A stretch of DNA of 64,000 bases. It comes from Gordonia alkaliphila (GTDB lineage: Bacteria; Actinomycetota; Actinomycetes; Mycobacteriales; Mycobacteriaceae). Both the position numbers and the translations under genes were made by a program. Numbering within the stretch: position 1 is the stretch's first letter; each line of letters begins with the position of its first letter. Shown here in pieces: positions 52 through 62,131 of this stretch. Below the pieces are notes generated by a model that was given only the letters and a program-made list of their open reading frames with translations, was not told the origin of the DNA and made no database searches. Where the stretch lies: positions 1,364,001-1,428,000 of the forward strand of contig NZ_JALKBW010000001.1 of the NCBI RefSeq assembly GCF_023017165.1, written 5' to 3'.

Positions 52-126
52 GGTAAAACAACGGCGTCCTGACGCCCACCGATGGCATATACGCATTGGT
101 GGACGCCAGGACGCCGTTGTTCTACC
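52..126. repeat. 75-bp palindromic repeat, copy 1
   Basis: A near-perfect 75-bp inverted repeat. The outer 20-bp arms (starting GGTAAAACAACGGCGTCC) pair with a single mismatch, and the inner part pairs with a few mismatches around a short AT-rich loop near 86-92. A second copy of identical length is at 61017-61091. It lies just past the 3' end of the esterase gene that ends at 157, so it could act as a terminator. The 51 bases before it hold nothing I recognise. Confidence 0.85.
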
Positions 127-156: not shown

Positions 157-1413
157 TCAGGACAGGCCGACGAGGCCGGGCTGATCGCTCTCCGGCTCAT
201 CCGTAGCAGAAGCGACGGAGGCCACGGAGGCAACCGGGGCGACGGGTGGAGGAGTGGAGTCGGTTGGTCCGTTGAAGTCCTGGAGCCCGTCCGGGGTGTT
301 CGCGTAGTTGTGGGTCACGCCTTCCGATTCGGCGAGCTCGGCGATGGCGCGGAACACGTCCTTCGAGGCCTCCGCCCACGGCATCAGGATCGGGAAGACG
401 TGGAACATGCCCGGCTGCTCCATCGCTCGCAGGCGGACGCCGCCGTCGCGAAGTTTGTCGCAGAACTCGCGGATCCCGTCGCGGAACATCTCCTTGTCGC
501 CCCACGCGACGAAGGTGGGCGGGAACCACTCGGGTTTCGGCTGGGTGTACACCACCGAGACACGGCCGTCGTTCGGCTGGATGCCGCGCAGGTAGGCGGT
601 CACCGGGATGTTCCACGGGAGCACGTCCGATTGCGAGTTCTCTATCACCGATTCCTGGTTGAGGTCCAGGTCCACCTCGGGGGAGAAGAGTGCGAGACCG
701 GCGGGCTTCTGGAGGCCCTGCTCCTGCAGGTACACGATTAGTGACGTCGACAGTCCGCCGCCGCCCGAGTCACCGGCCACGATGATGTCGTCGGCACCGA
801 TGCCCATCTCGAGGAGGCCGCGGTAGGCGTCGGCGGCGTCGTGCAGGGCCGCCGGGAACGGGAACTCCGGCGACATCCGGTAGTCGGGGATGAAGATCTG
901 GCAGCCGGACAGTCGAACGAGGGCGGCAGCGAACGCCGTGTACATCGACGGCGTGGTACCGAAGTAGCCACCGCCGTGCAGGTACAGGATGGTCTTGTCG
1001 TGCGCCTTGGGCGGGTCCTCGTGCGCGGCGACGGCCGGCTTCTCCCGGCACCAGAAGCCTTCCTGGCCGCCGACGACGCCGGCCTCGATCTCGACGCCAC
1101 CGGCCGCGCCGACGATCGGGGGAAGGATCGTCTTGCAGATGTTGTCGAGGATCTTCTCCATCGACCGGAACTCCTCGATCGGCAGACTCACCGAGTAGCC
1201 GAGGAACGATCGGATGGTCTGGCGGGTCACCGCCTGACCGATGTTGTCGAGAACGCCGCCCGGGCCGCTCAGCGGCTTCTGGAACGGCACGCGCGCCAGC
1301 CCGTTGAGCATGGTGTCGGCCATGCCGATCACCGTCAGTGCCGCAATCGGCTTCGACGCGGTCTTCACACCTTCACGATCAGCCATAACCATGTGGTCGA
1401 CCTTATGCGACAA
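157..1413 (-). CDS. alpha/beta-hydrolase, hormone-sensitive-lipase-type esterase
   Basis: A 418-residue predicted esterase or lipase acting on acyl esters. The oxyanion-hole motif HGGGY is followed by the nucleophile motif GDSGGG. An acidic candidate lies in WGDKEMF and a histidine in GMFHVFP, giving the expected catalytic triad order. There is no signal peptide, so it is probably cytoplasmic. The last 50 or so residues are a low-complexity Pro/Ala/Ser/Thr tail that is not part of the family fold. The start at 1413 gives an N-terminus of MSHKVDH; a methionine ten residues further in is an alternative. The family is clear, the natural substrate is not. Confidence 0.85.
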   Translation of the reverse strand: MSHKVDHMVMADREGVKTASKPIAALTVIGMADTMLNGLARVPFQKPLSGPGGVLDNIGQAVTRQTIRSFLGYSVSLPIEEFRSMEKILDNICKTILPPIVGAAGGVEIEAGVVGGQEGFWCREKPAVAAHEDPPKAHDKTILYLHGGGYFGTTPSMYTAFAAALVRLSGCQIFIPDYRMSPEFPFPAALHDAADAYRGLLEMGIGADDIIVAGDSGGGGLSTSLIVYLQEQGLQKPAGLALFSPEVDLDLNQESVIENSQSDVLPWNIPVTAYLRGIQPNDGRVSVVYTQPKPEWFPPTFVAWGDKEMFRDGIREFCDKLRDGGVRLRAMEQPGMFHVFPILMPWAEASKDVFRAIAELAESEGVTHNYANTPDGLQDFNGPTDSTPPPVAPVASVASVASATDEPESDQPGLVGLS

Positions 1414-57900: not shown

Positions 57901-59543
57901 ACCCGTGGGTCGCCGAGGTCCGCGGCAGCACGCCGGGCGTCGGCCTGATCTCGCCGCCGCCGCACCACGACATCTACTCGATCGAGGATCTGGCTCAGCT
58001 GATCCACGACCTGAAGAATGCGAATCCGGACGCTCGGATTCACGTGAAACTCGTCTCCGAGCTGGGGGTGGGCACGGTCGCGGCCGGCGTCTCGAAGGCG
58101 CACGCCGACGTGGTGCTGATCTCCGGGCACGACGGCGGCACCGGCGCGAGCCCGTTGACCTCGCTCAAGCACGCCGGCGCGCCCTGGGAGATCGGCCTGG
58201 CCGAGACCCAGCAGACGCTGCTGCTCAACGGTCTGCGCGACCGGATCGTGGTGCAGGTCGACGGTCAGCTCAAGACCGGTCGCGACGTGATGATCGCGGC
58301 GCTGCTCGGTGGTGAGGAGTTCGGTTTCGCCACCGCTCCACTGGTGGTCTCGGGCTGCATCATGATGCGCGTGTGCCACCTCGACACCTGCCCGGTGGGC
58401 GTCGCGACGCAGAATCCGCTGCTGCGCGAACGCTTCACCGGCAAGCCGGAGTTCGTCGAGAACTTCATGCTGTACATCGCCGAGGAGGTGCGAGAGCTGT
58501 TGGCGCGCTTGGGTTTCCGCACCCTGCAGGAGGCCGTCGGGCAGGTCGAGGCACTCGACACCACCAAGGCCGTCGCGCATTGGAAGGACGCCAAGGCCGG
58601 TCGGCTCGACCTGTCGCCGATCCTGGCGCAGCCGGAGTCGCCGTTCATGAACCAGGACCTGTACTGCTCCGGCACGCAGGACCACGGTCTGGACAAGGCG
58701 CTCGACAACGAGCTCATCGCCAAGGCCCGGTCGGCCATCGAGTCGGGCACGCGCGTGCACATCGAGACGCCGATCACCAACGTGAACCGGACCGTCGGCA
58801 CCATGCTCGGGCACGAGGTCACCAAGGCCTACGGTGCGGCGGGACTGCCGGAGGGCACCATCTCGGTGGCGCTCACCGGCTCGGCGGGCAACAGCTTCGG
58901 CGCCTTCCTGCCGGCGGGCATCACCATGCGCCTGACCGGTGACGCCAACGACTTCGTCGGCAAGGGCCTGTCCGGCGGCAAGATCGTGGTCGCCCCGTCG
59001 GTGGACGCCCCCGCGGGCTTCCTCGCCGAGGAGAACATCATCGCCGGCAACGTGATCGGCTTCGGCGGCACCGCAGGCAAGATCTTCCTGCGAGGTGTGG
59101 CGGGCGAACGGTTCTGCGTGCGGAACTCGGGCGTGCAGGCCGTCGTCGAAGGCGTCGGTGACCACGGCTGCGAGTACATGACCGGTGGACGCGTGATCGT
59201 TCTCGGCACCACCGGCCGCAACTTCGCGGCCGGCATGTCCGGCGGCGTCGCCTACGTCTACGACCCGAAGGGGGAGTTGGCCGGCAACCTCAACACCGAG
59301 TTGGTGGACCGCGAGGTCCCCGACGCCGACGACCTGGCCTACCTGCAGGCCATGCTCACCGAGCACCGAGACGAGACGCGGTCGCCGGTGGCGGCCAAGA
59401 TCCTCGGCAACTGGGCCGTGGCCCAGACCAAGTTCGCGAAGGTCATGCCCCGCGACTACAAGAGAGTGCTTGTCGCCATCGACGTCGCCGAGCGCACCGG
59501 ACGAGATGTGAACGAAGCGATCATGGAGGCGGCTCGTGGCTGA
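54969..59543 (+). CDS. gltB: glutamate synthase, large (alpha) subunit
   Basis: A 1524-residue enzyme that converts glutamine and 2-oxoglutarate into two glutamates with GltD. The class II amidotransferase nucleophile is Cys20 in HDACGVAF, exposed after cleavage of a short propeptide. The central and FMN domains include [17 protein letters not shown] and [15 protein letters not shown]. The 3Fe-4S cluster cysteines lie in [13 protein letters not shown]. The C-terminal GXGXG beta-helix ends the protein. Start chosen at 54969 because GGAGTAGG lies upstream; an in-frame ATG 33 bases earlier is an alternative. Confidence 0.96.
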
Positions 59544-60990
59544 TCCGAGAGGTTTTCTCAAGTACACCGAACGGGAGACGCCCACCCGGCGTCCCGTCGA
59601 ACTTCGACTGCGCGACTTCAACGAGGTCTACAACAAGTTCGACCACGGCACCTTGCAGAAGCAGGCGAGCCGGTGCATGGACTGCGGAATCCCGTTCTGC
59701 CACAACGGATGTCCGCTCGGGAATCTGATTCCGGAGTGGAACGACCTGGTCTTCCGCGGGCGGTGGGCCGACGGCATCGAACGACTGCACGCCACCAACA
59801 ACTTCCCGGAGTTCACCGGGCGGCTGTGTCCGGCGCCGTGCGAGGCGTCGTGCGTGTTGGGCATCAACGCCCCGGCGGTGACCATCAAGCAGGTCGAGGT
59901 GGAGCTCATCGAAAAGGCCTTCGACGACGACTCGGTGGTCCCGGTGCTGCCGTCCGAGCCGACCGGTCGCAGCGTCGCGGTGATCGGTTCCGGCCCGGCC
60001 GGACTGGCCGCCGCCCAGCAGCTGACCCGGGCCGGGCATGCGGTGACCGTCTTCGAGCGCGCCGATCGGATCGGCGGGCTGCTCCGGTACGGCATCCCCG
60101 AGTTCAAGATGGAGAAGCGCATCATCGACCGTCGCCTCGAGCAGATGACGGCCGAGGGCACGGTGTTCCGCACCGGCGTCAACGTGGGCGTCGACCTCAC
60201 CGTGGAGGAGTTGCGCGCGCAGTACGACGCAGTGGTCCTGTCGGTCGGTTCCACCATCGGCCGCGATCTGCCGATCCCCGGGCGCGAGCTCACCGGGATC
60301 TACCAGGCCATGGAGTTCCTGCCGCAGGCCAACCGTGCCGCGGTGGGCGACACGGTGCCCGACCAGGTCACCGCGGAGGGCAAGAAGGTCGTCATCATCG
60401 GCGGCGGCGACACCGGCGCCGACTGCCTGGGCACCTCGCTCCGGCAGGGTGCCGAGGTGGTCCACCAGTTCGAGATCATGCCGCGCCCGCCGGCCGAGCG
60501 CGCCGACTCGACGCCGTGGCCGCTGTACCCGCTGATGTACCGGGTGTCGTCGGCGCACGAAGAGGGCGGCGAACGCGTCTTCAGCGTCAACACCGAACAG
60601 TTCCTCGGCGAGAACGGTCAGGTCACCGGCCTGCGTGCGCACGAGGTGCAGATGGTGGGCGGCCGCTTCGAGAAAGTCGAGGGCACCGACTTCGACCTGG
60701 AGTGCGACCTGGTTCTGCTCGCGATGGGCTTCGTCGGCCCGGAGCGCGGCGACCTGCTCGACAAGTTGGGCGTCACCTATGACCCGCGCGGCAATGTCGC
60801 GCGCGGCGAGGACTTCGGGGCCAACGGCGTCCCCGGAGTCTTCGTTGCCGGGGACGCCGGCCGCGGGCAGTCGCTCATCGTGTGGGCGATCGCCGAGGGC
60901 CGCGCCGCGGCCGCAGGCGTAGACAAGTACCTGATGAGCAGCACGGAGCTCCCCGCTCCGATCGTCCCGACCCAGGTGGCGCAGCGCTGA
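59536..60990 (+). CDS. gltD: glutamate synthase, small (beta) subunit
   Basis: A 484-residue NADPH-oxidising subunit that feeds electrons to GltB through flavin and 4Fe-4S centres. The N-terminal cysteine set [18 protein letters not shown] and [12 protein letters not shown] binds the clusters. The FAD motif [13 protein letters not shown] and the NADPH motif [11 protein letters not shown] follow. It starts at GTG 59536, overlapping gltB by eight bases. The 75-bp palindrome at 61017 is its likely terminator. Confidence 0.96.
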
Positions 60991-61016: not shown

Positions 61017-61091
61017 GGTAAAACAACGGCGTCCTGAGCGCCGCCGATGGATATATGCCATCGGTGGCCGCCAGGACGCCGTTGTTTTACC
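61017..61091. repeat. 75-bp palindromic repeat, copy 2
   Basis: The same length as copy 1 at 52-126, with its outer 20-base arms identical to copy 1 except one base, which restores perfect pairing here. The inner stem and loop differ (ATATAT loop) but still pair well. It fills the gap between the convergent stops of gltD and the LacI-type gene. The right arm ends in GTTGTTTTACC, so it could terminate transcription from both sides. Confidence 0.88.
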
Positions 61092-61102: not shown

Positions 61103-62131
61103 CTACTGCGGTGCGGTGGAGCCGCGGGGGACCAGTTCCACCGGCAGGATCACGTCGGCGGGCCGCTCGTCCGGGTGGGCGATGTTCTCCAGCAGCAGTC
61201 GGACGCCGGCGGCGCCGATCTCGTGGGCGGGCGTGACGACGGTGGTCAGCGGGACCGGGAGCTGGGCGGCGACCGGGATGTCGTTGTAGCCCACCAGGCC
61301 GAGCTGATCCGGGATGGACAGGCCTCGGTCGCGGGCGACGCCGAGGATGCCGATCGCGATGGAGTCGCTGGCCGCGAAGATCGCGTCCGGCGGGGCGGGG
61401 GCGTCCAACAGGCGGTGGGCGGCCTCGATGCCGCCGGCCACGTCGAAGGCGGTGTGGGTGACGTGCTCGGCTTGGAGCGAGACGCCGGCGTCGGCCATCG
61501 CGGCGACGAACCCGGCGAGGCGGTCGTTGCCGGTGGTGGCGTGCGGCGGACCGCCCACCACGGCCGGGCGGCGGTAGCCGCAGTCGAGTAGGTGCCGGCC
61601 GGCGAGCACGCCGCCGAGGTGGTCGTCGCCGCCCACGTACGGCAGCCCGGAGTCGGCATGCCGGTTGAGCGCGATGGCGGGCACCGAGAGCCCGAGGTCG
61701 GCCACGAACTCGGCGGCGGGGCTGTGCAGGCTGCTGAGCAGCAGACCGTCCACCTGGCGGCCGGTCAGCAGGTCGATGGCGGCGCGCTGATCGGCCGGGT
61801 GGTCGGGCGGACTGCTCAGCAGCAGCGAGTAGCCCGCCGTGCGCGCGGCCTCCTCGGCGCCCTGATAGATGGTTGCGACCACGCCGTCGGTGAGCCGCGG
61901 CATCACCGCGCCGATGGTGGTGGTGCGTCGGGTGCGCAGGCTCGCGGCCCAGAGATTGGGGCGATAGCCGAGTTCGTCGGCCACCGCACGGATCCGGAGC
62001 GCCGAGTCCGACCAGCCGTCGACCGGCTCGGTCTGGCGCAGCACCCGCGACACCGTCGAGGTGTGCACCCCGGCGCGGTCGGCGATCTCCTTCATCGTCG
62101 GCGGCCGGGCGCTGCGCCTGGATGCGGACAT
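61103..62131 (-). CDS. LacI-family transcriptional regulator
   Basis: A 342-residue repressor. The N-terminal helix-turn-helix (TMKEIADRAGVHTSTVSRVL) and hinge helix precede a periplasmic-binding-protein-like sensor domain (GDDHLGGVLAGRHLLDCG, VGYNDIPVAAQLPVPLTTV). It diverges from an acyl-CoA dehydrogenase gene, and the shared region has a perfect operator-like palindrome. The start at 62131 (MSASRRSARPP) matches the usual distance to the helix-turn-helix; the frame beyond is open by chance. The effector is unknown, perhaps an acyl-CoA pathway intermediate. Confidence 0.93.
   Translation of the reverse strand: MSASRRSARPPTMKEIADRAGVHTSTVSRVLRQTEPVDGWSDSALRIRAVADELGYRPNLWAASLRTRRTTTIGAVMPRLTDGVVATIYQGAEEAARTAGYSLLLSSPPDHPADQRAAIDLLTGRQVDGLLLSSLHSPAAEFVADLGLSVPAIALNRHADSGLPYVGGDDHLGGVLAGRHLLDCGYRRPAVVGGPPHATTGNDRLAGFVAAMADAGVSLQAEHVTHTAFDVAGGIEAAHRLLDAPAPPDAIFAASDSIAIGILGVARDRGLSIPDQLGLVGYNDIPVAAQLPVPLTTVVTPAHEIGAAGVRLLLENIAHPDERPADVILPVELVPRGSTAPQ

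Follow-up and report, generated by a model that had tools for sequence, protein, structure and literature searches.

A dispersed palindromic element near stop codons in Gordonia genomes, with arms that depend on the species

What kind of element is represented by two long palindromes of almost the same sequence that lie at gene ends in one stretch of the Gordonia alkaliphila chromosome? The window, which is the whole stretch of 64,000 nucleotides that was analysed, corresponds to positions 1364001-1428000 of the main contig (C1) in a genome of 3.85 Mb, labelled G000 here. A first-pass annotation made from the letters alone had reported two palindromes of equal length with nearly identical arms, and this description holds, as both are 75 bp long, the left arms are identical and the right arms differ by one base (Table 1). 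Its placement of the copies is also correct. Copy 2 lies in a convergent gap between the stops of a gltD-like gene (a name inferred from its domains) and an opposite-strand LacI-type gene, and copy 1 is found at the end of a minus-strand alpha/beta-hydrolase gene. The gap that holds copy 1 is convergent as well, with a tRNA-Ala gene just outside the window that ends 95 nt before the palindrome. The stretch containing copy 1 (L014) follows tRNA-Ile and tRNA-Ala near a gyrA-like gene, the latter recognised by eye. A search of the window and five loci of the same genome against Rfam at gathering score returned tRNA alone and no match to the palindrome.

Table 1 Coordinates of the two palindromes, their parts and the adjoining genes, counted from the first letter of the window
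Feature	Position	Strand	Remarks
Palindrome copy 1, 75 bp	52..126		genome C1:1364052-1364126
Copy 1 left outer arm, 20 bp	52..71	+	same sequence in copy 2
Copy 1 left variable, weakly paired segment	72..78		ungapped alignment, pairing counts
Copy 1 core palindrome (inner hairpin, AT-rich centre)	79..99		alignment; family core
Copy 1 right variable segment	100..106		alignment
Copy 1 right outer arm	107..126	-	inverted partner of left arm
Alpha/beta-hydrolase gene (Abhydrolase_3)	157..1413	-	L014:2658-3914; stop 30 nt from copy 1
gltD-like gene (Fer4_20 and Pyr_redox_2 domains)	59536..60990	+	stop 26 nt before copy 2
Palindrome copy 2, 75 bp	61017..61091		genome C1:1425017-1425091
Copy 2 left outer arm	61017..61036	+	same sequence as in copy 1
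Copy 2 left variable segment	61037..61043		alignment, pairing counts
Copy 2 core palindrome, CCGATGGATATATGCCATCGG	61044..61064		alignment
Copy 2 right variable segment	61065..61071		alignment, pairing counts
Copy 2 right outer arm	61072..61091	-	one base different from copy 1 right arm
LacI-family regulator gene	61103..62095	-	L012:2104-3096; stop 11 nt past copy 2; predicted start (codon usage)

The palindrome had been counted as present twice, which proved to be an undercount. A whole-genome search identified ten copies in G000, each 75 bp long and all on contig 1, with E-values (better strand of each) of 3e-33 to 1e-15 that are far beyond chance, and the two in the window are thus not the only ones. 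All ten can be oriented one way, with 59-73 of the 75 positions identical between different copies. No convincing eleventh copy was recovered with a covariance model (best 150 of 12605 candidates scored), which gave one further match of 82 nt at E 0.066. Searched as a 15-mer with at most one mismatch, the arm occurs at 18 places in the genome, 17 of them within elements and one in a coding stretch. This lone arm, at C1:2092580, sits within a 536-codon open reading frame and is taken as chance. Three of the copies are clustered (C1:2923327-2924446; L013:2828-3947) in tandem units, each some 0.5 kb long and extending into the flanks. The cluster occupies a 1.1-kb stretch without a called gene, flanked by a ferredoxin-reductase-like gene and a gene whose match to MTES_1575 is sub-threshold. 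At another site, two copies separated by 3 kb enclose a DUF222 gene along with an IS3-like transposase pair (C1:1207205-1210369; L010:2206-5370).

Mean identity among the G000 copies is 0.95 in the 20-bp arms, 0.60 in the 7-nt segment and 0.81 in the core half, calculated from eight of the ten copies (one per site) in an ungapped alignment. The inner sequences had been said to differ while pairing was kept, as though the hairpin were under selection, and the ten copies do not bear this out. One pair has changed on both sides, whereas shuffles average 2.8; covariation is 0.082 against 0.089 in shuffles; and with the full symmetric stem the paired fraction of cells is 87.6%, equal to shuffles. 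The claim is therefore unsupported within G000, and the segment that differs (columns 21-27 and 49-55) is the weakest-pairing part of the element. Covariation among the genome's own copies, not being above shuffles, was rejected as proof of selection for the hairpin.

Relatives of the element are evident across the genus once the species-specific arms are left out of the search. At BLAST level (E 0.001), DNA similarity returned no relative in 58 other Gordonia species, with at most 15 best candidates per genome, and no match in 40 sampled genomes; these negatives are misleading alone because the arms are species-specific. A covariance model of the G000 copies found palindromes, mostly of 70-78 nt, in 18 of the 58 Gordonia species when E per genome was required to be 0.01 or lower, a threshold at which about one chance match is expected; the 60-nt matches in G009 and G070 could lie outside the family, as could other weak ones. 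Because member lengths differ, the consensus fold from an alignment of 48 members was poor, and centre-anchored pairing of core-selected elements was used in its place. As a structure model rewards any long hairpin, the search was moved to a sequence-only core pattern, CCGAGGGC-WWWWW-GCCCTCGG. Allowing at most two mismatches, this pattern occurs in 32 of 59 Gordonia genomes, with up to 46 matches (G045), whereas the control, the same pattern reversed and also a palindrome, occurs in 0 of 59. The 27 genomes without a match at this level include G000 and G004. The cores of G000 have at least three mismatches to the family core, and membership of G000 therefore rests on the structure-heavy model, the equal anatomy and one shared site. 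The best core match was retrieved for 30 of the 32 genomes, and four of these 30 loci have no outer stem (L132, L137, L142, L146). In total the nested layout was found in 26 core-positive genomes (G045 through its other copies) and, through the structure model, in G000 and G004.

Among 397 genomes of the order, the core pattern was detected in 37 of the 391 that are not Gordonia and the control in 3 of 397. These matches are mostly single and carry two mismatches, and they were not accepted as members, 24 of the 28 distinct ones examined falling inside genes. The arm-palindrome pattern gave 15 loci in a collection of 84,980 species, none with the G000 spacing, and viral contigs, phages and plasmids gave no match to a pattern search or to copy 2 as query. 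At the sensitivity used, these searches show a family that appears restricted to Gordonia.

Each family unit is built from an outer arm of 16-20 bp, a variable segment of 7-8 nt, a core of about 21 bp, a second variable segment and the opposite outer arm. The family core is a 21-bp palindrome, CCGAGGGC-AATAT-GCCCTCGG. An outer stem, defined as at least half of positions 9-22 paired, is present in 59 of 64 core-selected elements; duplicates and core matches with fewer than 40 nt on one side (e.g. L124, at a contig start) were dropped before this count and the core-selected counts of arms and placement below, and L132, L137, L142, L146 and L156, which have no outer stem and are probably false, were kept and scored as misses among the 64. 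Pairing is high beside the core, drops to near expectation 3-7 nt from it (0.33-0.47 against 0.28-0.40), is raised at 8-26 nt (Watson-Crick pairing of 0.52-0.88, where different elements would give 0.27-0.79) and beyond 27 nt returns to about the expected level. This profile indicates that the nested layout of G000 holds across the genus.

The outer arms depend on the species. Among 67 elements from 16 genomes, which include some elements found by the structure model, arm identity is 0.59 within species and 0.45 between, a difference reached in 0 of 2000 label shuffles, and the segment beside the core carries no species signal (0.34 within versus 0.34 between). More than one arm type occurs in some genomes, namely G004 and G045. 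When three single arms were folded with RNA parameters, those of G000 and G045 gave no structure and that of G057 reached only -1.0 kcal/mol. The motif CGTCC is found in many Gordonia arms, positioned within the paired outer stem. The copies in G006 (L113, L114, L115, L116) have common flanks and are part of a longer repeated unit of about 250 nt. In L114, L115 and L116 a second hairpin-like stretch (GGGGAAGAG...CTTCCCC) precedes the element.

Length is fixed in G000 and in one subfamily of G045. With one mismatch allowed, 58 sites in G045 match the arm GAAAATCGTCCGAATA, and arms that pair within 5 kb do so at a start-to-start distance of 53 nt in 23 of 23 cases, in a draft assembly of about 130 contigs and for the one arm type tested. 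The other 12 arms lack a partner at one mismatch or fewer; 11 of them were retrieved and read as 69-bp elements with a degenerate second arm, and the twelfth (C42:64689) has a core match beside it. In 31 such elements the arms are 0.92 alike and the inner segment 0.46, compared with 0.33 for random strings. The inner segment of this subfamily is far drifted with no change in length among the elements seen.

The elements lie near stop codons. Seven of the ten G000 copies are within 30 nt of a stop, one is at 91 nt and two, both from the cluster of three, are far from any. No copy falls within a called gene, although one extends over the final 21 bp of its neighbour, and four are in convergent and six in tandem gaps. 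Among 54 model-selected elements, own copies included, there are 26 convergent, 23 tandem, 3 divergent and 2 undetermined placements, and among 68 core-selected Gordonia matches (of 96 rows) there are 24 convergent, 25 tandem and 6 divergent, with 4 inside genes and 9 undetermined. The nearest stop is at 30 nt or less in 35 of the 55 core-selected Gordonia matches with a neighbouring stop called, and the nearest start is as close in 3 of the 33 with a neighbouring start called (genes were called with a codon-usage script). Divergent gaps make up 6 of 27 window gaps of at least 75 nt and hold 6 of 55 elements (P 0.025), a modest depletion against a background of one window's gaps, and nearness to stop codons is the stronger placement sign. 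At L009 a copy separates a CoaE gene from a convergent gene that has four S1 domains (rpsA-like).

Some gene ends carry the element in more than one species. A DEAD-box helicase gene has an element at its 3' end in G000 and also in G057, and the arms of the two elements differ. G024 and G057 share another site, a gene end where their arms resemble each other (AACGTCCCC) and are unlike those of most other G057 copies. After gltD in other Gordonia, a simple test detected a terminator-like hairpin at 8 of 25 loci, from a survey of 30 of which five had no usable stop; G000 is among the 25 and was scored negative, and since the test misses the G000 element it undercounts. In G050, a close relative (L043), a different palindromic repeat, GCTCCTTGAGCTTGTCGAAAGG, occurs in tandem directly after gltD, at the site of the G000 element, and a motif like GCTCCTTGAGCTTGTCGAAAGG also follows gltD at L061.

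No common gene family was found near the elements in an all-against-all blastp comparison of 322 predicted proteins, with few genes called in G045 in that run. Hydrolase-like proteins with 26-31% identity recur at a few loci (L014, L079, L097, L108). The origin-proximal half of the chromosome holds 21 of 27 positions in G000, G004 and G057 (KS P 0.006 together, not significant for G057 alone), a post hoc bias with inferred origin positions that is not relied on.

We consider it probable, with some reserve, that the palindromes represent a dispersed non-coding REPIN-like element of Gordonia without a detected RAYT, which in G000 probably serves as a terminator as well. Of the two identities first suggested, the REP-like dispersed element is supported by the ten copies, the genus-wide family, the species-specific arms, the fixed length, the placement at gene ends and the tandem cluster that carries flanks. 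REPINs are understood to depend on RAYT transposases. A REP-associated transposase with matching ends had been named as a thing to look for, and none was detected, as RAYT genes (IS200/IS605-type Y1 transposase, PF01797) are found in 0 of 59 Gordonia genomes by a search that was positive in 5 of 14 control genomes, and no insertion sequence with matching ends was seen in G000, nor in G045 for the one arm type examined there.

The constant length, the frozen arms and the freely varying inner segment suggest that some factor, which could be a copying enzyme or a DNA-binding protein, recognises the arms and their geometry. The arms would be kept alike within a genome and changed together between species, with the inner segment drifting freely, and the dependence of the arms on species suggests turnover of copies or concerted change. 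Copies would persist just past stop codons, where they may be harmless. A more specific version of the REPIN-like reading is that the element replicates without an IS200/IS605-type transposase, its arms re-specified in each species and its central hairpin constant, and that the factor reads the arms at a fixed distance and ignores the inner segment. This version is put forward tentatively, as a possibility that we doubt more than we believe. Several observations speak against a REPIN-like reading, including the low copy numbers (10 in G000, up to 46 core matches in G045), the failure to find a transposase (searched as PF01797) or other partner, the lack of any sign of transposition, excision or an empty site among single genomes per species, the absence of covariation among own copies, the three or more mismatches of the G000 cores to the family core, the scarcity of T-tracts outside G000, and the position of two of the three copies clustered at 2923 kb, which are not near a stop codon.

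A role in termination is suggested by the flanks of the G000 copies. The arms end in A/T tracts, so that RNA made from either side would form a long hairpin followed by a U-rich tract. All 10 of the G000 copies are flanked on either side by at least five T in eight, counted without a random control, and on this basis each G000 copy should act as a bidirectional intrinsic terminator, a function that these copies probably have in addition. In six other species a T-tract is present on both sides of 1 of 60 copies and on at least one side of 8 of 60, which makes termination through a U-tract unlikely as the purpose of the family. The second identity first suggested, a conserved bidirectional terminator class, is supported for G000, by its T-tracts and position, and not supported for the family as a whole.

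It is nevertheless conceivable, if rather unlikely in our estimate, that the elements are chiefly bidirectional terminators, kept by selection for termination and homogenised by gene conversion, without mobility. Many elements (e.g. L075, L084, L108-L111) take up the entire convergent gap, 9-25 nt beyond the stops, and in G000 all own copies have a stem with T-tracts on both sides. The gene ends shared between species also fit, since some species have terminator-like hairpins after gltD where G000 has the element, the DEAD-box helicase end keeps an element despite different arms, and the common site and similar arm in G024 and G057 look like inheritance in place. A terminator, however, requires neither a conserved core, nor a fixed length, nor species-specific arms, and the scarcity of T-tracts in the six other species counts further against this account. 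A simple terminator scan flagged copy 1 on one strand and copy 2 on none, and the second scan missed the element after gltD, although such scans restrict the accepted stem and loop.

The elements might instead be binding sites of a chromosome-organising or regulatory protein, for example gyrase or a nucleoid protein, that contacts arms and core at a fixed distance. Fixed length and free inner sequence would be expected of such a site, and the origin-half bias described above for G000 and G004 points the same way. The arms vary between species and between subfamilies of one genome, unlike the conserved site of a general protein, 27 of the 59 genomes (G000 and G004 among them) are without a core match, and there is no candidate protein, all of which leaves this explanation improbable. 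Usual MITEs have conserved ends and a variable interior. Derivation of the element as a MITE by deletion from an insertion sequence, with the outer arms as terminal inverted repeats moved by the transposase of that insertion sequence, is very improbable, as its inverted 16-20 bp arms, dispersed copies and fixed length are offset by a constant core and variable arms across species (the reverse of that behaviour), by the lack of any G045 half-site pair of one arm type within 5 kb at a distance other than 53 nt (in a draft where an insertion sequence could break at contig ends), by the confinement of the G000 arm to elements and one coding place with no insertion sequence bearing these ends, by ten flanks in which no target-site duplication is visible by eye (old copies could have lost it), and by the lack of a viral-contig, phage or plasmid match.

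If the REPIN-like reading is true, much of the REPIN signature (frozen arms, drifting spacer, fixed length) in a genus without a detected RAYT-type transposase would imply that copying can proceed by a different route, or that strong selection can imitate it. The family copies also mark where transcripts probably end in Gordonia, and gene ends whose element has other arms in another species offer a natural experiment.

A search of open-access literature for Gordonia palindromic repeats, actinobacterial REPs and the sequences themselves yielded no description of this family among the matches listed, with most subscription journals outside its scope. The element resembles bidirectional intrinsic terminators in its GC-rich stem, in the A and T tracts that flank the G000 copies and in its convergent gaps, but ordinary terminators of this kind are not known as sequence-conserved 75-mers with a conserved core. 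YPAL and ERIC are long intergenic palindromes of enterobacteria, foldable as RNA and present in tens of copies, and the Gordonia element shares these traits. It differs from them in phylum and in being shorter than their models, given as 136-168 nt for YPAL and 103-115 nt for ERIC in the accessible part of PMC2267715.

CGTC-tagged REPs are described in the portion of PMC3733652 available to us as mainly alpha-proteobacterial, with stems of 8-9 bp and an unpaired CGTC tag. According to the same portion, conv-REPs lie less than 20 bp from the 3' ends of both flanking ORFs, uni-REPs lie near the upstream 3' end and there is no dedicated transposase, all of which recalls the Gordonia element (PMC3733652), as does the presence of CGTCC in many of its arms. 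In Gordonia, however, CGTCC is paired within the outer stem of a nested unit that measures 69-77 bp. That portion gives 0 occurrences for Gordonia, Mycobacterium, Rhodococcus and Actinobacteria and mentions untagged REP-like repeats in M. tuberculosis (PMC3733652).

The closest comparison is with REPINs, which the accessible text of PMC3116915 describes in Pseudomonas fluorescens as REP doublets that form hairpins. REPINs have two invariant inverted ends of 16 bp and a spacer constrained mainly in its length and hairpin capacity, and like the Gordonia element they are dispersed extragenically, form tandem clusters with flanks and occur as several groups per genome (PMC3116915, in part). In the same text, REPINs are tied to RAYT genes, with none detected in the 59 Gordonia genomes, compensatory changes are common, with none above chance in G000, and REP doublets are random in extragenic space, whereas the Gordonia elements cluster near stop codons (PMC3116915). 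The 21-bp Gordonia core is common across species and the arms are not. A single arm of G000 or G045 forms no hairpin by itself in RNA folding, and CGTCC is paired, unlike the unpaired GTAG or CGTC tag of a REP half, which further separates the elements from REPs. G000 does have a short palindromic repeat in many extragenic copies, ten being at the low end, and inverted ends with a spacer of fixed length are present in both genomes (23 of 23 pairs at 53 nt in G045, 10 of 10 copies at 75 bp in G000). By the features tested the Gordonia element is not a REP or a REPIN, though it works like one.
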